A stretch of 64,000 bases of DNA from Polytrichum commune (lineage: Eukaryota; Streptophyta; Polytrichopsida; Polytrichales; Polytrichaceae). Position 1 is the first letter of the stretch. Each line of letters begins with the position of its first letter. Made by a program: the position numbers and the translations under genes. Location of the stretch: positions 18,846,001-18,910,000 of the forward strand of contig OX485803.1 in NCBI GenBank assembly GCA_950295325.1, read 5' to 3'. Below are positions 1 through 33,832 of the stretch, one piece after another. The notes under the pieces were generated by a model. It had not been told where the DNA came from and ran no database searches. It saw only the letters and a program-made list of their open reading frames with translations.

Positions 1-1780
1 TTGATAACATTGTTTAATTTTAATTTATGTATATTCAATCTCATGACATGCAATCATACCATCAAGTATATGGGATAATTCAATATAATGGATCCATCAA
101 TAAGATCCATCAATAAGATATACTAAAATGTTTCAAACCTTCAGATGATACCTTATATTTGTGTATGTACATCTCAAGGATATACATGTTAATATGTTTA
201 TGATGTTTTATAAGCAATAATTATTGCAAGAAAAGCCATCTCAATCATTCATGAGAGTAGCAATGATGGTTGATCACATGATATATTAATCACATACATT
301 CGATAGGGGATCTCACTTGGTAATATGCTACAATATTCAGAGAAAGACATGCAAAATTCGATGACATAGTTGAAGAAAATCAAACACACGTGATTGCTAC
401 ATTGATATGTGCAATTAGGTTGCCTCCACAAATAGGTTGCCTCCTTAGCCATGCAAATTATCTTAGATCAAAATAAGATCCTCAAAAGATGTAATTTTGT
501 CTATCAATTTGTATGGCAACCACAATAATAAAAGAATCATATATGTATATTTGGTAAAAAATATTTTAAAATTGGCAACGTCAATGTCATGAAGCAACAT
601 AATTGCACATGTCAATGTATTTATCACGTTAAATTTTGCATTGATGCCCTTGACTATGCAATGTATATTGTAATTTATTTGTATTGATTATATTTTATAT
701 GCAGTACACATAATATATATTTGTTTCGCACCTCACTACTGTGTAAGAATTCTTTGTGATTTCCAAACACCAATTCATGATTGTGTCTCATTTTCAACTA
801 CTCCTAAATTTATCCTTTAACTCAATCAAAGATTTTGGTCAAGAGTTATTTGCTTTGCATAAAATGTTTTCATGTTCAATTAGTTTTTTGTGCACGTGTT
901 GCAGTTGGCATGGAGGTTTGAACAATGAACTTTTATGTTGGTTAATTGAGGGTCAAACTCATTTTTGCATGCCAAGAAGTGTTAAAACCTTATTGGTATT
1001 TCTAATTTAGACCTAACATAGGAGATGTTTTCAAATTATTTGGTTATGAAAACGTGGAGGTATCATGCAAGTACCAAGCAGGAAACAAAGGAAGATCTTC
1101 TCATTGCATTTGGTCCTACCAATATCATCTCCATCTAATTTCAGGATAAAGATGGGGAAGAATCTCCCTTATATACTATATTCAATGCCAACATGGTGTG
1201 TCTAAAAGCCATCACATATAACATGTGGATAGACAAGCAAAACATTCCTCCCCCCCCCCCACACACACACAACAAGTCAATTTACCCCCATACGAAAGCT
1301 TAAATTGTAATCATAAACCATTAAGGGAATAGCTTAGATGTGTACATTTTGAATATGTGTACCAAGCCATAGTGGATACCCTTGTGATTGTACAAAGAAC
1401 ATCACATCACTCCCCCCTTCCTAGTCCTTTGTTCGCCAAGTATGTACTTGCTAGTGTAAGTGACTCATAATGCACCAAACTCTTTCTATGGGTTCAAATT
1501 ACCGAGTAATGAAAAACAAAGAATTGCAACTTCAACTTTTGTCTCGGATGTCTAGGACACATGCTCCCCCATAACTACCAAAGCAAAATAAAAACAATAA
1601 TGAACGACAAACACGAAGCATGGCCCTTCAATAGTGAAGAACTAAATTTTTTTTTATCTTGAATACTTTGGGTTGCATCAAGAGTTGCGATGATTAAAAT
1701 ACCTTAAAAAATCCAACAAAATACTCACCTCCTCCAAAGTGTCTCTGAATACAAATATAAAAACCACATTAGTAATTGAA
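1..1780. other. AT-rich intergenic DNA, no gene seen
   Basis: The reading frames here are short, unconserved and lack recognisable motifs. The only structured feature is a run of 11 C at 1250-1260 followed by a short CA repeat. I see no promoter, RNA gene or transposon terminus that I can support. Confidence 0.6.
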
Positions 1781-4700
1781 TTTATAAATTCCAAAAAACA
1801 AATAAAGAAGTTCCTCAACTCACCCAACCAACAAATTTTACCACTCTTGCCTCCTCCAAAGTAGATTAGGAACCCTGAAAATACAAAAATAAGTCATATA
1901 AACATAAAACCTCTAACCTTTGTAAAACTACAAATTTAAAACCCTGAAATAACATTTATGAGTATGAAACATCTAAACTTAGAACATTAAACCTATGTCA
2001 TCTAAATTTATAAATTCCAATATAAAAACAAAATCTACAACCTAGTGGACCTAAACTTAGAAACCATGCACTCACAACAATTTAGTGTAAAACATCAAAA
2101 CCAAAAATAGATACAAAACACATTTAGCAAACCGACATACTTACCGCCAACACCACATGCCTGCCAACACAAAACCCCTAAAACCTCCACCCACTATCAT
2201 ATAATTACCTCAATACAACTCCAAATCTTGCTCACAATCTTGTTTCTAGGCCACATCTACTCCACATAACACACACCAACAACAATACACAACATACATC
2301 CATCTATGTGCCCCTCACTTCAAAATCCCCATGAACTGAAGACACATACACATAGCCCACCTACCCATCACAACATCAATCACCCACTATGAACACCCTT
2401 GATCAATCCAAAAATGTCCACCCAAACCTAGACCCCCTCACCCATATTACTAGATACCTTCCCATCTCTATGAACCTCTGTCAAACCAATTTCTTCCAAC
2501 ACATACCACCACAATGAAAAGAAATTACCAATATATTCCACCAAAAATTTGAAACATGCTTTAACCCTCCAAACTCCTAACAAAAAAAAGTTACACTTTC
2601 CCAAACTCACCAAACAGAGTATCCTTCTATCCAACTACACTTGAATCAAAGTCATATTCGCATTCATAGTTAAACTTGACTCCCCGACCAACTTCGAAAA
2701 TGCACTAAGACTACACTTTCAACCCACATCCCAAACCATGTCAATGCATTTAACAACCACCACCTCGATGTCATTACAACCCCACCCACACACTAGACCT
2801 GGTCAAATCACAATCCCATATGGAGACTCCAAATTATGATTGAATTCACAACAACCTCTTTAAGTATATCAATGGAACCTCACTCCCCCCCCCCCCCCTC
2901 CCCAAAAACACCCATGTGCTAGTAAGGATTCTTGCACCTAAATGAAGACATCCTTATAGTTTGTGCTCAAATTCTACACACCAGTGCCTTAACCCCATCC
3001 AATACGATTACACAACAACCCCGACCCACCACCCCCTTCATCCCAAACCACCTCCAATACATCGAAATACCCCACCTTTGTCACATGGGACATCAACACG
3101 CTATATAATAGCATACCAAGTCTTTAAGCTCCCCAAAAACCCTCACACCCCCCCCCTTCGATTGGATTCTTATAAGAAACCAAAATCCTTACATATAGAA
3201 AATCTATATACCTCAAAAAAATATATATATATGATTTAAGTATGTTTGGATTTGTACGTTGAATTTTGGACAATTCCAACCACCAGTATGGTGTACATTG
3301 CATTGCAAATCTACACACATATGGTGGTTCGCGAACATGGAATACAAACACTCAAACTTGTGATTGCCGTGCTTTTGTTTTTGTTGATGTTGTTTGATGT
3401 TTTTGTCCCCGCAAATGATTTGTCCAAATATACTTAAATGTCAATTAACTCCACAATCACAACCTCGTACATGGAGGGGACACATACATTTACCAAGTAC
3501 CTACAACAATGATAATTAAACTAAACGCCCACTAGAGGGGGAATTATGATCGTCATCCACCGCAAATACCACATGAAATCACAATTAGAACACATCAAAC
3601 TACCAAGTCTAAATTATTTCATACATGCATATTGTGCTCATACACAATAAACCCGCACCATCCCTACTCATCCTTCACACTTATATGCCCGTCCACCCCA
3701 CAAACCTACCCCACGTACCACTAATTCAAATATCCATACAAAGCACCATAAATCGATTCCTAATTTTACAATACCATCCTAGCCGTCAACTTTAACAAAG
3801 GTTTCCCCTCATAGGGCGACAACTAGGCTCCCATAACATTCCCCCGCCCCCACCGACATGCAATGGTCCACCTTCATGAACCAACTACAACTCAACTATA
3901 TTCCCACTACCACATCTTTCACCCAACAAGGCAATGACACCTACAACTCCCATAGCCTCACAGTTGGATTCTATCATTAAAAACAAAACCCCCAACTATG
4001 TATTGGCTATACAAACAAACCTCAACCACTCACATAACTCCAACCATTATCCAATACAACTCAACATCCCCCCCCCCCCACACACTACACTACACTCAAT
4101 CAAATCCACAATATCACCTGCCCTACAACGCACATCCCCCAACCAGTCTCACCAACCAATATCCAACGTTTTAGCAATGTTTTCACCACAAATTACATCT
4201 CATTTGTACACAACTGCAAATCGGCCTAGTGGGACACTTACCACAACATCGGCCCTTCATATGTGAAACCCTAGAATCCATCACCAACACATTGGCCCAT
4301 AGCATAGACCAACATGTACCTGCCCCCTCCTATACCAAACAACAGGATCTCTAGGACAAGGAAAATTGATAACTCACTCCTTCAAAAATCTCTGGCGACA
4401 TCATCTTAACATATACCACTCCACACAAAAAAAAATTATTTGCTTCCACCACATGAACCCCTTAGATCTCAAAACCCCCCTTCCTCCTTCATCATGTCAA
4501 CACTACCGGCTGCCCACAAAACTCCAACGCCACCACCAAACTCCACACAAAGGATCCAAGACCTCACCACACTCAACAAAGACGCCCGCAAAGAAGCCTA
4601 CAAATTTACTGGGATACAAACAATTTGGTGTAAACAAAGCCATCAAACACTATCAAGACCAACACCTCCTCAACACCAAACCCTGCCTCATAAATAAATA
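1780..4700. other. Strand-asymmetric, G-depleted tract
   Basis: For about 2.9 kb the plus strand is mostly A and C with very little G, unlike the flanks. It includes C homopolymers at 2885-2898, about 3148-3156 and 4068-4079. The few open frames (for example 3934-4266 and 4366-4701) are rich in Pro, His, Thr and Asn because of this composition. They show no domain, so I do not call them genes. A decayed transposon whose coding strand is the minus strand is one possible origin. That is inference. Confidence 0.55.
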
Positions 4701-4761
4701 AATATTTACCACCTCCGAAGCAAGTAACCTATAAAGCCTTTGCTCGAACCCTAGGGGTGGA

Positions 4762-5465
4762 TTATGTATACCATGTACAAACTAGGATGAGTGTAAGAAG
4801 GGTTATTATTTGAGGCATTAGCATACATAGTATACACACGGGAGAGGTCTTAATTTTCTCCAGTGATAACATTTAAAAAAGTTGTCAAAAAATTTAAAGT
4901 AAAGGGAGATGTAAAAAAAGGGCCCTGAATGTTAGAGAAAAAATTAACATTAGGTGTGATGGTTTCATCCAATTCACATTTTCATCCATTGTTGTCAGAT
5001 GGTAATAATCCTTAATAAATATCATGCTCATTGTTGGTAGGATTTGCATGAGGGTTTTAAATATTGACAAATTGAAGGTTATTGGAGCGCTCATGGGCCT
5101 ATTGAGTTTTGATTTCCAAATTAAGGGTAAATTATTGTGTTTTTGTCTTTGTTTGTTTGATGCAATTGTTGGGATACATGCTATGGAGTAAAAAAAAATG
5201 TTCAATGACTCTTTAATTAGAGATTGAAAGTGGATTTTACATGCAATAAAGGTCTATTTCATTCATGATTATATTTGTCTATGTAGTTAATGTATGTACC
5301 ACATTTGATAAACTTAGTATATTACACGAGTCCATTCCCTCATACCGTTATTATGTATACATTTATTTTTCTCTTTAAGCTTCTTGTATATAAGAGTTTT
5401 AATTTTATATTGACGTATGCATGTCATTTAGGTTTCCAATGAAGAGTCCACCCCTTGAGGCTTGA
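4762..5465 (+). repeat. Dispersed repeat H, copy 1
   Basis: This stretch matches 11685-12200 in the same orientation, although degenerate and with length differences. Shared landmarks are the segment around the TTTGTTTGTTTGATGCAATTG string, the ATAAAGG(C/T)CTATTT segment, and the right end near ATGCATGTCATTTAGG followed by CCAATGAAGAGTCCA. Neither copy carries a conserved reading frame. It is probably part of an old transposon, of unknown class. Confidence 0.55.
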
Positions 5466-6460
5466 CCAATGGTACCGTCCTCACCCATCCCCAAAACATC
5501 ACTCAAGAATTCTTTAACCAAGAAACAACCATATTCAAATGCCAAACACCACTATGCACATTGCCTAGGTCACACCCCATGGATAGTCTAAAGACAAAAT
5601 GCTTGTCTTCAAAATGTTTGTGGTGTGGACCTTCCAAGAAGTGGTGTGGATCTTGCGAAATGTATGCATGTCAGAGGGGACATGGAGAATTTTTGGATAA
5701 TATTCAAATGCTTGAAAAATTGGACCACCCTGGTGTGCCATGTGTTGATGATTATGTGTTATGACATGCAATTTGAAGATGATGCAACACAAACTCTCTT
5801 CTAAGAGATTTTGAATCTAGTCATGGCGGAGAATATAGTGCCACATGTGAAATTCAAGGGTTTCATGGCATACAATGCTATGGGGACGGTGACCCAAATT
5901 TACTAGTAGTGGGTCATGACTACACATGTTTTGTTCATTGGTCTGCGAGTTTGGATAAAGCGACACAAAAGTACATCAAAACATCATTGCAGTAAGAACA
6001 CAAACAACTACGCAATAATTATAAGGATGCAAAAATATTGGATGAGGCCAAAACTAAATATCATGTGTTCGTTCATGGTGGTTGTCCTCCGAAGTTGCCA
6101 CAAAGGAAGTCATACTTGGTCTCTCGAAGTGGTTAGGAATGTGGCACTTCTATTGCATGCAATGGGGTAGTCATATGCTTATTACAATTGCATTACTAAA
6201 TTGTATTCTTGAATGTTATATTGTTTTAAACATCTTATACATACATATTGTCCACTACAATTTATGTGTTCTTCGTAGGATATGACAAATAGATGAACAT
6301 ATGGAAATGCCAAGATGTAACCTTGCATAGATAGTGCACAACAAGTGGTTTCAATAGTCCGGCAACAAAATAACTTCACAAAGCAACAATAGACGACTTG
6401 ACCATAGCCTTCATGCATATTGCAAATTACATGTCTTAAAAGAGGGGATTTTTTAGTAGA
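5466..6460. other. Unassigned; possible decayed transposon interior
   Basis: There is one 100-codon frame (5462-5764, plus) containing several Cys residues in CxxC-like spacing (C-L-W-C-G and W-C-G-S-C). It lies between repeat H and the SWIM relic, so it may be part of the same dead element. I cannot identify a family from it. Confidence 0.3.
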
Positions 6461-6869
6461 GGGCCTCATTCAACGTCCTTGAAATTGAAGGTTGTTGCCA
6501 AGTGTGGAGAGCCCAACATGTTGGTAGATGCTATGAAGTCCAATTTGGGGTCGGAAGATCTTAAAACCAGGGGTTGTGCCTTGTAAAGGTTGGAGTTGTT
6601 TGCATCCACCAAAAAGAAGCTTGATTTGTTGTCTAGTGCCAATTGCAACTCACATCGACCTGACAATGTGAATTATTTAATTTTTTGCCTTAACACTAGG
6701 GCAAAAAAAAAACATGCATAGAGGAATCCTTGAATTCCGAAAGCATGCCAGGTGTGGCTCATACCACATTGGTATTCAAGACTAATTTGCCTTCTTCCCG
6801 ATGGCACATTTTAAAGTTGCCACCCAACTCTGCTAAAAGATGTTGGGTGATGCAAGCCAATACAAAGAC

Positions 6870-7711
6870 TTTGTGCAATGCCAAAACTCGGAATTGACAA
6901 ATATGACACCCTTGCTCCAACATACAAGGGTATGAAGAAAAAAATACTACTCCACCGACAATGTGGAATACAAATTTTGGTTTTGCCCGAACGACATCAA
7001 AGGTGGTGTCATTATCAGCAAGAAGAAGCATGTGTTGGACTAGCCTATATTCCCCAACACATGGCCAGTGTAGATAGGTACCAATTTCACAAAGCACGAG
7101 GTGTTGGCTCTTGAAGACATTGGATTTCATTTGCATAAGAGGAAGGCACTTTCTCCTCGTCATAGGCTTTCTACAATTGCTGCACTACCAATCCCTTGGT
7201 CACGTTTTTGTTTGCCACAAAACCCGGATGTCCACCCTATTTCCAATTTTGGGAAGACGGCCCATCACAATCTGACAACACTGATGGTGAATCACAAAAA
7301 CAAATGGGAGAGTGCTAGACTTAGGAATGGTTACAATTTGGTTGGAGTCACTTCCATTTCATATCCAAGCTTTGGAGTGACAATCGACATCGTCTTCACA
7401 AAGGACATTACATACCATGTCACAATTGGTGACATCCTAGATTACACATGCCACGACTTTACGAAAATGTCATCCCATGCCTTGGGAGAGAACAAGAAAT
7501 GGATGTATAGCAAACATCTTTATAATGTGTGTGTGTGTGTGTGTGTGTGTTTTCTTTTTTCTTTTTTCTTTTTTGCAAGGTGGATTATGACAATGACAAG
7601 TTCATTCACGTCCCAACGTTCATCTACAATGAAGTCACGCAACTGGTTGAACTTGTTGGTGTTGTAAGATGTAGGCCAAGTTCCATGTGTTATACCAAAT
7701 TGCATATTTGA
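6870..7711 (+). pseudogene. SWIM zinc-finger protein relic, probably MULE-transposase-derived
   Basis: The plus strand encodes fragments in more than one frame. The best part, within 7101-7525, reads through T-Y-H-V-T-I-G-D, then Y-T-C-H-D-F and K-W-M-Y-S-K-H-L-Y-N-V. This has the layout of a SWIM finger (CxCx(n)CxH), but the second Cys of the first pair is His and the later Cys is Ser, so metal binding should be lost. The frame resumes after a TG microsatellite as F-C-K-V-D-Y-D-N-D-K-F-I-H. Upstream pieces (6900-7100) need frame changes and contain stops. SWIM fingers accompany MULE transposases and some plant host genes derived from them. The context of transposon debris favours a dead transposase. 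No intact copy is present. Confidence 0.55.
7526..7550. repeat. (TG)n microsatellite inside SWIM relic
   Basis: About 12 TG units, followed by a T-rich tract with TTTTTTC repeats, separate the two halves of the SWIM-domain reading frame. Confidence 0.9.
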
Positions 7712-8336
7712 GAATGTTGGTATGTGACTTGTATTGATGTGGAATAGATAATAATTTCTCAAATATCCATTGTAAAAGACCATTTTACTTTTGTTCAAAC
7801 AAAATTGTAACAGTTTACAAATACAAAATTACAATAAAATTAGTGTTGTTTTGGAGTATGTGCCCTAAAACCTTGTGCAAATACTGAATTTGACGTAATT
7901 GCTTACATGCTACCACCCATCCCTCACTTCTCACATCTTAGCTTCCCTTAGGAGATGATGAGGAGGGAAACAAAAAGGAAGGATGAGAACATACATGGAT
8001 GGACTTTATTTATTGTTAAAAGTTGAAATATACAACAATATTCTTAAACTTTGAGAGTTTGTAAAATATATTTATGGGGGAGGGTGAGGGATGCCTCCAA
8101 TTGTTGAAATTGAAGGTCTAATATACAGGAGAGAAAAATGAGGAGAGGAGATGGAAGAGAAGGTTAACTAGGAGGAAGCGTTTTTATAAATGATAGGACA
8201 TATTTGTACATTTTTTTATTTAAGAAATAATAATGGACGTTATATAGAGAGGTTGAATAAAAAAATAACAATGTTAAGCCTCCATGAGAAATTTTTTCAT
8301 ACAAGCCAACAGTTCCATAAAAAGAAACATACACAT
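7712..8336. other. No gene seen
   Basis: AT-rich sequence without conserved frames or repeat matches that I can support. Confidence 0.5.
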
Positions 8337-8534
8337 TTAACATGTGAAGTCTTGAGGGGTATATAAGATGCGTATATTCAAAACCATCACCAAACGTAGA
8401 ACCACCACTATGTATCACATGTATACATTTGTTTGCTTCCAAATGTATGCATGTGATACATAGTGGTGATTTTAGGTTTGGTGGTGGTGGCTTTAAGTAT
8501 ACATATCATAGCCTTCTTTAAGACATGTTACAAA
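8337..8534. repeat. Long foldback (inverted repeat) hairpin
   Basis: The core arms 8401-8430 and 8441-8470 are reverse complements at about 28 of 30 positions, around a 10-nt loop (8431-8440). Weaker complementarity continues outward to roughly 8337 and 8534. RNA from either strand could form a hairpin with arms of about 80-95 bp. This fits a foldback MITE or a young hairpin-RNA locus. No coding potential is visible. Confidence 0.75.
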
Positions 8535-21168: not shown

Positions 21169-25931
<4,763 letters not shown>

Positions 25932-30300: not shown

Positions 30301-33300
30301 CATCCTGACAGTGTGAGTCTATGATATCACATTATGGAACTCATTAGACACCGGCTGAGAAAGTTGCAACTCTTATATCAACGTCATATCTGTACGGGTT
30401 TGATGGAAAAAAATGTATTTGTTGGATTCGGACAGATATGATAGTAGTGTCACTTGTGATTGCAGATGTGAAGAGCATGATATCAGTGGGACTCTCAACC
30501 ATGAGCCTAGTTGGCCTTAATTTGGAGCAGGTGGCAAGCAGAAGAAAACAGATCCGAATCCTATGTATTGGACTTGGAGGAGGCAGCCTTCCACTCTTCC
30601 TGGCTCACAACTTGCCTGGTACATACAACTTTTGCCAGGTGCAGTATCAGGTTTCTTAGCTTGCACTGGTGACATCATTCGGATTAAGCTCTATTGGAAA
30701 ATAATACACTGTGTTGTATATCTTCTTGATGTGGGATCTTCAAAATTTGTATTGTGTGCTCTCACCCCTCAAGATACACTAATAACAAGTGAGGCTGGGT
30801 GCAAGCTTTTTGTTACTCCAAATGCATAAGCTGGACAATAGTGCCTCATCAGGTGCAAAGGGTGGTTCAAACCCAATTCCTTAACCTGCATCCCATGGGA
30901 ACTCGGAGGTTAAGCCACCAAAGGCTGGAATTGTGCTCGGATGGGTGACCTTCCTAGCACTTGATTTCCGGTGCACCCTACCACTATGGTTCACCCAATC
31001 ATAGCAGGAGTATCTGGGTGAACCAAAGCCTTACAACCAACCATGTGGGGACCTAGAGGCTTGCCCTTGGGGTAGATTAGGTGTTGGCTTGTCCATGCAT
31101 GTTCAAGGTGTTCATCTTTGGAAAAGAGACAATAGTCTTCAAGGTCCCTCTATTTCTGGTGATGTCCGTTTCGGTATCACATATAGAATGAGACTAACTT
31201 GAAGACGAAGCAACACCATAATTCACGCTGGTGACAGCATTGGAATCATCTCTTCTCTTCTCTTCATCAGGTGCAAAAGTGGACATTGTTGAGATCGATG
31301 GTGCTGTTATCAGGGCAGCTATAGAGAGTATGGGTTTTCCTCCTTGCCTTTCTCGTTCATCTTGTTTCAAAGTCCCTGCATTATCCTCTGTGGCAACGGG
31401 GAGGTCAGATTTAGGAGAGTATGAGGAGCTGCATGGAGGAACAAAAGCAGATAAGTACTCTGGACAAGAACGTGAAGCCTCTGAGGAAGTGCTATATGGC
31501 AGCACTTTGAGGAACATGACTCTCTATGAGGCTGATGGGGAGGCATATGTTGTCGAGTTGGAACAACAAGAATCTAGAAAAAAACCATCACTTCAGCAAT
31601 ATTATGATGTTGTTTTTGTGGATGCCTATGATGGAGATGACATGGTACCCACCAATTTATGGGCAAGGAATGGACCCTTCTTGACATCTTTGAATCAGCT
31701 CCTGCATCCTAAGCATGGAACAGCTGTGGTATGTCTACCATGCTCATATGGCCTTTTCAATTCATTTGCACGTACATCATTGTTGCATTTTGCGCTGCAA
31801 AGGACACTTTCTTTATGTCACCTCTAAAACATCCACCGGAAAGTAGTGAACAGCAGGTTTAAGGAAGTTTGAAACCCTGGGATAGAGGTTAGTGTGAATG
31901 TCCTCAACTGCAATCAGGATGCAAATTTTACACATCAACCAAATGCCAACATAATTATTCAGAAGCCTTTGATGACTTGTATCTCTGAAACACACCAAGT
32001 CCTTGTTGAATAATCTGAAAACTCTAAGAATATAAAAAGAAGAAGGCTGTATCTAAGACAGTTTCTGGTTATTATTCCTTAAGATTGAACAGGGTCCTCG
32101 TATATTTATATCTTAAACTGGACTTATTGCTTTGAAGTTGAAAGTGACCACTTTGGGAAGGTGTCTAAAAGAAAGAAGCATTCTCAAACTGTTGTATGGC
32201 GACCACAGAGTTCAGTTTAATGGTCATTGCAGATTTCATATAGTGCTTTGCTGTTCAGATTTATATTGGGAGTCAATAGCCATTTATTGTTTGTATGTGG
32301 TGTAGATTAATTTGCATACAGATGCACCTCCGCCATCCCTGCTTGAGAAAGCCACAGGACAATATGGTCCTGGATTTAACCCTTCTCTACCTCAAGGAAG
32401 AAGAGTTCAAGAAGCATGCTGGAGTTACAGGTCAGTCATTCCTCATTCCTGTCATAGTATTTCCTCATCTTGGATGGATATCGATGAGGTTTAAATCCCT
32501 AAGTCAGTACAAAATATTTTTCTCTTTTTTAAGACAATTTCCCAGAGACCTCATTGTTGCCATCATGTTCAGCAAACTTGTGAACCTTTCATCAGCTTGT
32601 GAACTCGAGTTCAATGACCTCCAGAATTATTGAGTTCAGTTGGTCACATCTTGACATTTCCAAAGAGATACTGCAGCTCAAACTTGTGCACTTGAGTTAA
32701 TTTCATATATCTTAAACGCAGGGCCTTGACCCAGATCCCATGGGATCTCCAAGGTTAAGCTGCCTGAGGTAGGAATAGTCCTCAGACAGGTGACCTTCCT
32801 AACACTTGAATTCCAGTGCACCTAACACTATGCCCCAGCCAATCATAGCGAGGGTATCTGGTTGAACTAGATATTCTCAATCAACCATGTAGGAACTCGG
32901 GGGACTTGCTCTTGGGGAGAATAGGTGCAGGCCAGCTTTAGGGTTCAAGTTCAAGGTGTCCACGTTTGAAAGAAAGATGTTAGTCAATCTTTGAGGGCCC
33001 TCGAATTCTTATGATGCCCATTTTATGATTACATATAGAGTGAGACCAACTCGAAGATGAAGCAACAACACAATTCATGACAGCGGCAACATCAGAGTCA
33101 CCTAAGTACCATGAATCATGAACCTGGGTGTGAATTGACTGAATATCCTGATTGTGCAGGAAAGAAGGCAGTAGTTTTTGAGGGCCCTCTAATTCTAGTG
33201 ATGCGCATTGTAGGATTACATACAGAGTTAGACCAACCCAAAGATAAAGCAACATCACAATTCACAATGGTGACAACATCGAAGTCATCTAAATATCATG

Positions 33301-33832
33301 AACCTGTGTGTGAATAGACTGGATATCCTGATTGTGCAGGGAAAGACGACAGTAGTCTTTGAAGGCTCTCTAATTCTCATGATACCCATTTTAGGATTAC
33401 ATATAGAATTAGACCAACTCAAAGATGAAGTAACCCAAATTTCATGCCGGTGGCAACATTGGAGTCTTCTAAATACCATGAATTAGAAGCTGGGTGTGAT
33501 TTGACTGAATATCCTGATTGTGCAGGGATGCTTTGTTATCCTCATCTACTGGCACTGGTCCAGTTGGTGGTGTTGCATTCACAGTAGCGGTACCATCACA
33601 AGGAAACATCAGCCTGGTAGTATCAAGAGGTCTCTCTGTCAACAATACTTTAAGCTCTCGCACGGAAAAGCGCAGCACCCAAGAGGAGCAGAATGTTGTT
33701 GATAAACTGAAACAGGAATCAAAGTCTCTCCAGAAGGTGCTCAACTCCCAGATTGACTTCTCTAAGCGAGTGTCTCGTGGATTTCAAATTGTGCAAGGCA
33801 GGGTAAAGGATAGGCAAACATCACTAATGTGA
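27320..33832 (+). CDS. Spermidine-synthase-fold SAM-dependent methyltransferase (METTL13-like)
   Basis: Six exons are well supported: 29279-29517, 29692-29923, 30466-30618, 31271-31728, 32306-32430 and 33526-33832 (stop), giving 504 residues. An inferred first exon ends at 27527, and its phase-1 donor matches the phase of 29279. The ATG at 27320 is a tentative start; the frame stays open upstream to 26993, with other in-frame ATGs. The first supported exon has W-Q-Y-S-P-E-W-W-G-T-Q-G-G-G-W-G-R-D. Exon 30466-30618 carries the SAM-binding glycine loop I-G-L-G-G-G-S-L. The next exon has V-D-I-V-E-I-D-G (acidic residue for SAM ribose), then D-V-V-F-V-D-A-Y-D-G-D-D. These are typical of plant spermidine-synthase-like methyltransferases related to the C-terminal half of METTL13 (eEF1A methyltransferase). 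The substrate here is unknown. If used, the first exon has an Arg/Leu-rich start that could be an organellar targeting peptide. The C-terminal ~60 residues are charged and may form a coiled coil. Confidence 0.85.
27526..28395 (+). repeat. Five tandem ~145-180 bp units in intron 1 of the methyltransferase gene
   Basis: The GACAGACATCT-type anchor recurs near 27634, 27797, 27976, 28122 (GACAGGTATCT) and 28301 (diverged). Each is surrounded by CATGGCCACATTTG, a pyrimidine-rich TCCC block, GGCTCGAGTTG and CCTGACTT(G/A)TATGGTTA. A partial unit starts right at the inferred exon 1 donor (TTTGGAGCATCCCTGACTTG), so the array covers the 5' end of the intron. Confidence 0.85.
28900..29036 (+). repeat. 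Dispersed repeat V, copy 1 (intronic)
   Basis: This matches 58618-58722. Shared words are GTCAAAGTGAAGATTCT, GAGCACA(T/C)A(G/A)TCCAAT and ACACATGTCTTTTT. It lies in intron 1 of the methyltransferase gene. Class unknown. Confidence 0.55.
30860..31250 (+). mobile_element. 5S-rRNA-derived SINE-like element, copy 1 (intronic)
   Basis: The first ~119 bp (30860-30978) align along their length with plant 5S rRNA: a GGGTG start, GCATCCCATGGGAACTCGGA, GGTTAAGC (A-box region), CGGATGGGTGACCT (C-box region) and a GGTGCACCC end. The following ~270 bp are not 5S. They match the body of the second copy at 32824-33102, for example CAATCATAGC, GGGTGAACC-like and AACCATGT(G/A)(G/A)GGA words. The right end lies about 20 bp before the 3' splice site of exon 31271-31728. 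A 5S-like head carrying an internal pol III promoter, joined to a shared unrelated body, is the architecture of SINE3-class (5S-derived) SINEs. No clear target duplication or tail was found. Confidence 0.7.
32721..33102 (+). mobile_element. 5S-rRNA-derived SINE-like element, copy 2 (intronic)
   Basis: The head 32721-32823 is a more diverged 5S-like segment: AGATCCCATGGGATCTCCAA, GGTTAAGC, CAGGTGACCTTCCTAACACT. The body matches copy 1 to GGCAACATCAGAGTCA. It lies in the intron before the last exon. Compared with copy 1, the 5' third is shortened by some 15 bp. The C box reads CAGACAGGTGACC rather than CGGATGGGTGACC, so its own promoter is probably weak or dead. Confidence 0.65.
32985..33525 (+). 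repeat. Tandem triplication of SINE tail plus 3' splice site
   Basis: Three ~180-186 bp units each run from a (T/G)AGG(G/C)(C/T)CTCTAATTCT-type block through ACATA(T/C)AGA and GA(A/T)GAAGCAA-like words to TATCCTGATTGTGCAGG. Potential acceptors therefore end at 33159, 33339 and 33525. Only the last fits the reading frame of the terminal exon. Using the first would give a stop within about eight codons. Confidence 0.85.

Follow-up and report, generated by a model that had tools for sequence, protein, structure and literature searches.

A dispersed repeat family with a 5S rRNA-derived head in the moss Polytrichum commune, very probably a plant SINE of the SINE3 type

SINEs whose head derives from 5S rRNA are on record for vertebrates, insects and fungi, with more than one origin. 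Those named in the accessible text of three articles are zebrafish SINE3, AmnSINE1 and the DeuSINEs, Ped-1, the lepidopteran HaSE3 and PxSE4-5, and SINE3-1_AO and AfuSINE3 of Aspergillus (PMC10886601, PMC3747384, PMC5063351). PMC3747384 tabulates SINE/LINE pairs, and in its accessible text the three from land plants are tRNA-headed. The 5S-bearing plant element Cassandra is described, in the available parts of the sources, from vascular plants (PMC7215508, PMC10853983), and the LTR-type relatives Helenus (from a plant) and Ajax have 5-bp target-site duplications (TSDs), according to the accessible text of PMC10886601. The available text of PMC3095306 places 5S-like sequences among SINE3s ‘including plants’, but the reference given there is the Cassandra paper. 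No published 5S-headed plant SINE was found in the literature searched, in the portions accessible, including PMC8825457, PMC11490119 and PMC10741241; the search did not extend to Repbase, SINEBase or the majority of subscription papers, and a prior name is possible. The family described here is apparently the first 5S-headed SINE family in plants.

The window is a stretch of 64,000 nucleotides from the P. commune assembly, and all features below lie on its forward strand. The plant host proposed in the initial annotation is supported by TTTAGGG telomere repeats at 4 of the 6 contig ends examined and by a plastid-like contig with an intact, land-plant-like rbcL, the best PDB matches of which are plant-type Rubisco chains. 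Element 1 is a complete copy of 30860 to 31263 including its tail, in a family with a length of about 405 bp. Its 5S rRNA-derived head (30860 to 30978) opens with the family left edge GGGTGG and is followed by a family-specific body unrelated to 5S (30979 to 31250) and a pyrimidine tail, TCTTCTCTTCTCT, at 31251 to 31263. The position 31250, originally given as the end of the element, is the end of the body, the tail extending the element to 31263. Within the head, sequence and alignment point to a box A-like part, GGTTAAGC (30908 to 30915), and a box C-like part, CGGATGGGTGACC (30938 to 30950), of a type 1 pol III internal promoter. Of the 18 positions of the consensus in the box C region, 15 have the same base as the genome’s own 5S.

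Over its 119 bp, the consensus head is identical to the genome’s own 5S gene in 84 of 124 alignment columns (score 113), and the head of element 1 in 81 of 124. Among 1000 shuffled heads the highest score against the same gene was 51, so that the consensus head aligns far better than chance. Seven windows of the body score between 16 and 39 against 5S, under this shuffled maximum, confirming that non-5S sequence follows the head from 30979 to 31250. The best kept part is consensus stretch 30-97, which has the promoter boxes inside and is identical to the own 5S at 54 of 68 positions, against 25 of 51 in the remainder. The Rfam 5S model gives the head of element 1 only 19.7 bits (E 0.9), below its gathering score of 38, and a scan of the whole window at the gathering threshold returned no 5S match. 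Among 10 other loci the same model yields one match at E ≤ 1 (L011, 23.9 bits), likewise under 38. The head stands where the initial annotation had located it and passes the shuffle test, with a weaker match than the ‘end to end’ alignment to plant 5S rRNA claimed there. Judged by its sequence, it is a degenerate 5S, roughly one position in three differing between the consensus head and the own 5S. The family consensus has a TTTT in its interior, at which pol III might stop early. Of the 20 positions that distinguish the own 5S from a flowering-plant 5S, the head shares 8 with the own 5S and 3 with the flowering-plant sequence, and matches neither at 9; for an origin from the own 5S this is suggestive, not conclusive.

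The twelve best full-length 5S places of the genome are 81-86% identical to a flowering-plant 5S, and so point to a host that is probably no flowering plant. The 5S genes appear as dispersed single copies and not as one tandem array, with about a dozen good ones assembled; the loci L021, L022 and L059-L065 lie on contigs C1, C2, C3, C5 and C6. Some of them (L021, L022, L061, L062) have a TATA-like motif about 30 bp upstream, and L062 holds an inverted pair with 500-bp arms that are 98% alike. A second 5S-like repeat, with two head-to-tail 5S-like units 184 bp apart, is found at L066 (C2) and L067 (C7), which are 95% alike over 683 bp.

The initial annotation placed both elements of the window in introns of one methyltransferase gene. 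For element 1 this is borne out, as the intron of 30619 to 31270 is defined by an alignment of the spliced exons to METTL13 (5wcj) that runs across the join (E 2.5e-6); element 2 probably lies in a downstream intron of the same METTL13-like gene. The downstream exon by itself has no METTL13 match, and Pfam gives a weak spermidine-synthase match for the gene (E 0.24). Elsewhere in the window, an exon of an FSH1-type serine hydrolase is found at 25053-25931 (Pfam PF03959, E 9.3e-48). Element 1 is flanked by a perfect 14-bp TSD, TCATCAGGTGCAAA, absent from the initial annotation, with its left copy at 30846 to 30859 and its right copy at 31264 to 31277. This TSD spans the 3’ splice site of the intron: the original intron/exon junction lies within the left copy, while the right copy has the acceptor CAG (ending at 31270) and the first exon bases. 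Because the splice site was copied as part of the TSD, the acceptor is now present twice, and the METTL13-like gene retains a working-looking one behind the SINE tail. The reading frame indicates that this acceptor is the one in use, in which case the tail sits directly upstream of it, where the polypyrimidine tract belongs.

Element 2 has the head-body order that had been reported for it, with its boundaries moved from 32721-33102 to about 32708-33103 (the start falling at about 32708-32711). It is 82.1% identical to the family consensus over 385 columns and no TSD was found in its flanks; from its sequence it appears to be an older copy. A 187-bp tandem array of 2.9 copies (32988 to 33528) comprises the 3’ part of element 2 and the intron sequence that follows, and includes two partial elements (33160-33291 and 33341-33470) that the initial annotation lacked, each an incomplete repeat of that 3’ part. 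Each unit of the array also has an acceptor-like TGTGCAG, giving several candidate 3’ splice sites in the intron of element 2.

The repeat is far from confined to this gene. With the window element as query, the genome assembly gave at least 41 matches of 77-100% identity (best 40 of 2188 candidates scored), and with the consensus at least 41 (best 40 of 2776 candidates scored). An exact 27-mer from the 3’ end has 95 matches genome-wide and an exact head-body junction pattern has 71, with 0 for either reversed control, in place of the two copies alone that would have spoken against a SINE. By these exact patterns the family is present on all seven large contigs (C1-C7). As the 27-mer is found in 5 of 56 copies and the junction pattern in 3 of 75, copy numbers of about 1064 (484-3206) and about 1775 (631-8527) are obtained, a rough estimate, extrapolated from small fractions, of 1,000 to a few thousand copies. 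The body does not occur widely without the head either: a body-only query gave 40 matches, and among the 36 newly fetched copies the 5S head is present (reaching consensus position 45 or earlier) in 33, with the first five positions reached in 28. The other four (L005, L006, L009, L013) are likewise head-bearing.

An alignment of 20 out of 21 sequences shows that the family begins sharply at GGGTGGCTTAAACCC and that its right edge is GGAGTC[A/G]TC, beyond which lies a pyrimidine tail that is often (TTTC)n, as also seen in the tails listed for 101 matches. Many copies are 5’-truncated. Of 39 copies for which the 3’ 27-mer was the sole means of selection, 19 extend into the first five positions of the consensus and 23 to position 64 or earlier, while 12 start beyond position 118; several copies have internal deletions (e.g. 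L090, L103, L150). Divergence from the consensus in 39 copies has a mean of 13.6% (range 5.7-20.4%, K2P 0.154), and on account of this mean the family is considered old and perhaps inactive. The folded consensus RNA shows no excess stability (z -1.12, with 12 of 100 shuffles equally stable). At L029, L048 and L078, SINE copies lie head to tail, adjoining or nearly so, an arrangement that suggests local duplication or else insertion into or beside a copy already in place.

Target-primed reverse transcription characteristically leaves TSDs of variable length, a shared tail and 5’-truncated copies. Both the TSDs and the shared 3’ tail that the initial annotation had named as support for a SINE are present in the family. 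Among 44 full-length copies, both window elements included, 16 have a TSD score of at least 8, against 0.49 expected from mismatched flanks, and 8 score at least 11; of 1892 mismatched flank pairs, 21 reach 8 and 0 reach 11. The clear TSDs of the full-length copies vary in length from 7 to 14 bp. The remaining 28 of 44 are without a clear TSD (score below 8), as expected of old insertions, though this is no proof. In 22 of the 39 copies selected by the 27-mer, truncation or internal deletion has left a 3’ piece that does not begin until after position 60, and five of these have a TSD score of at least 8 against 0.67 expected; the best of the 22 is L078, cut at position 64, with a near-perfect TSD of 25 bp.

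Several TSDs resembled 3’ splice sites, so a preference for such sites was suspected, and a one-sided count had appeared more favourable. With a control it was rejected at the level of the family: 31 of 90 copies have [CT]AGG in the 60 nt that follow the tail, and 32 of 90 have it in the corresponding stretch of the upstream flank, read as its reverse complement. Over the same distance, CAGG shows a mild excess (24 of 90 downstream versus 14 of 90 in the control flank), and TGCAG occurs in 11 versus 7 of the 90 copies. Since the family has no such preference, the window copy at a splice site is treated as a single case. L002 has a similar acceptor-like stretch, TTTGTGCAGGTTGAAAGGGCC, in both flanks, giving the impression of an intron/exon junction copied to either side of the SINE.

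The family is very probably a 5S-headed SINE, by structure of the SINE3 type, and the initial proposal of a 5S-derived SINE family agrees with the dispersed copies, the head-body junction, the TSDs and the common tail. RNA polymerase III would transcribe the element from the internal promoter kept in the 5S-derived head, giving a SINE RNA that includes the family-specific body and has a (TTTC)n-like tail at its 3’ end. This RNA may be taken up by the target-primed reverse transcription machinery of a LINE that does not need poly(A), with insertion producing TSDs that, where clear, are mostly about 7-14 bp long, and reverse transcription presumably often stopping early to leave 5’-truncated copies. 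Element 1 would have been inserted in this way across the 3’ splice site of the METTL13-like gene. SINE3 elements often have their 3’ tail in common with a partner LINE. A LINE sharing the 3’ end of the SINE was not found among the 3’ regions of 14 RT elements (0 of 14 match; nhmmer, E ≤ 10; 14 of 150 listed RVT_1 hits). All 20 of the best tail matches fetched are SINE copies and none is a LINE, and a Pfam scan of three RT regions, one frame each, gave 0 families. Because 4 of 5 L1-type regions (L112-L114, L116) end in poly(A), unlike the SINE, its partner is probably a LINE type other than L1. Points that weigh against a SINE are this negative result for a partner among the regions compared, the 28 full-length copies lacking a clear TSD, the Rfam scores under the gathering score and the TTTT inside the consensus.

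Three other readings were weighed. The first annotation gave as its main alternative an intragenic duplication of one 5S-like insertion, with no mobile family involved; two elements 1.4 kb apart in one gene and the local tandem array on element 2 would fit this, but the family is found genome-wide and the two window copies share only 77.3% identity across 343 columns, where 150 random pairs average 81.5% (sd 2.3). As the 500-bp flanks of the two elements do not match either, elements 1 and 2 are, on these comparisons, independent insertions, and the probability of the duplication reading is negligible. That 5S retropseudogenes or 5S genes landed in another repeat, such as a MITE-like DNA transposon, with the 5S a passenger without a promoter role, is highly unlikely. 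This reading could draw on the divergence of the consensus head from the own 5S, on the partner LINE not found among the 14 of 150 listed RT hits checked, and on the merely predicted status of pol III transcription. It is opposed by the location of the head, which in complete copies sits at the 5’ edge, and by the preservation of region 30-97 with the promoter boxes, an argument at the level of the consensus and no proof of activity. In addition, a DNA transposon would not account for TSDs of variable length, truncated 5’ ends and a common tail, all of which fit retroposition.

The copies could also be solo LTRs left by a TRIM like Cassandra, which is an LTR retrotransposon with 5S sequence in its LTRs and is known from ferns and flowering plants, as Cassandra shares the ingredient of a 5S promoter in a short dispersed plant repeat and as a second family piece lies nearby in 6 of 56 loci of the whole-element and body sets (L019, L027, L029, L032, L048, L054). 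However, the element starts with GGGTGG, its 5S lies at the very 5’ edge and its other end is a pyrimidine tail, without TG...CA; its TSDs vary from 7 to 14 bp, while those of Cassandra are 5 bp. Among the first 20 loci, searched to about 700 bp on either side, a second (partial) copy occurs only at L019, and because the copies at L029 and L048 are separated by 0 and about 21 bp, there is no room for the internal domain of an LTR element. The PBS motif TGGTATCAGAGC is at chance, with at least two mismatches in 114 of 115 loci and one mismatch in the other, shuffled loci having 2-4 mismatches, and 5’-truncated copies with a TSD are not expected of LTR elements. Since it has neither TG...CA ends nor LTR pairs, the family is not regarded as Cassandra, and this exceedingly improbable reading is largely refuted.

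With a 5S-headed SINE as the preferred reading, plant SINEs are not all tRNA-headed, and annotation pipelines should allow for 5S heads. It has been speculated that Cassandra began with a SINE3 landing in an LTR (accessible text of PMC10886601). A real plant family would make this idea testable by comparing the heads, hosts and ages of plant SINE3s with those of Cassandra and, if it is true, plant SINE3s would be the missing donor for an origin in which a SINE3 jumped into an LTR. A land-plant SINE3 lineage outside flowering plants, moved by a LINE that recognises a pyrimidine and not a poly(A) tail, and donor for Cassandra as well, is a joint reading that we consider rather unlikely.

Like Cassandra, the moss family is a plant retroelement with a 5S-derived promoter region; Cassandra has its 5S inside LTRs and has a PBS, whereas in this family LTR pairs, TG...CA ends and 5-bp TSDs are lacking. 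With the tRNA-headed plant SINEs (TS, Au, p-SINE1, ZmSINE2/3, SB1) it has in common that these are short, non-autonomous, TSD-flanked plant retroposons, the difference being a 5S head in place of a tRNA head. It is unlike the known SINE3s in its plant host, a head most like plant-type 5S, a (TTTC)n-like pyrimidine tail and the lack of a partner LINE among the elements compared. Its assignment to SINE3 is structural: both have a 5S head with a box A/IE/C region, an unrelated body, a distinct 3’ tail, TSDs and dispersed copies.
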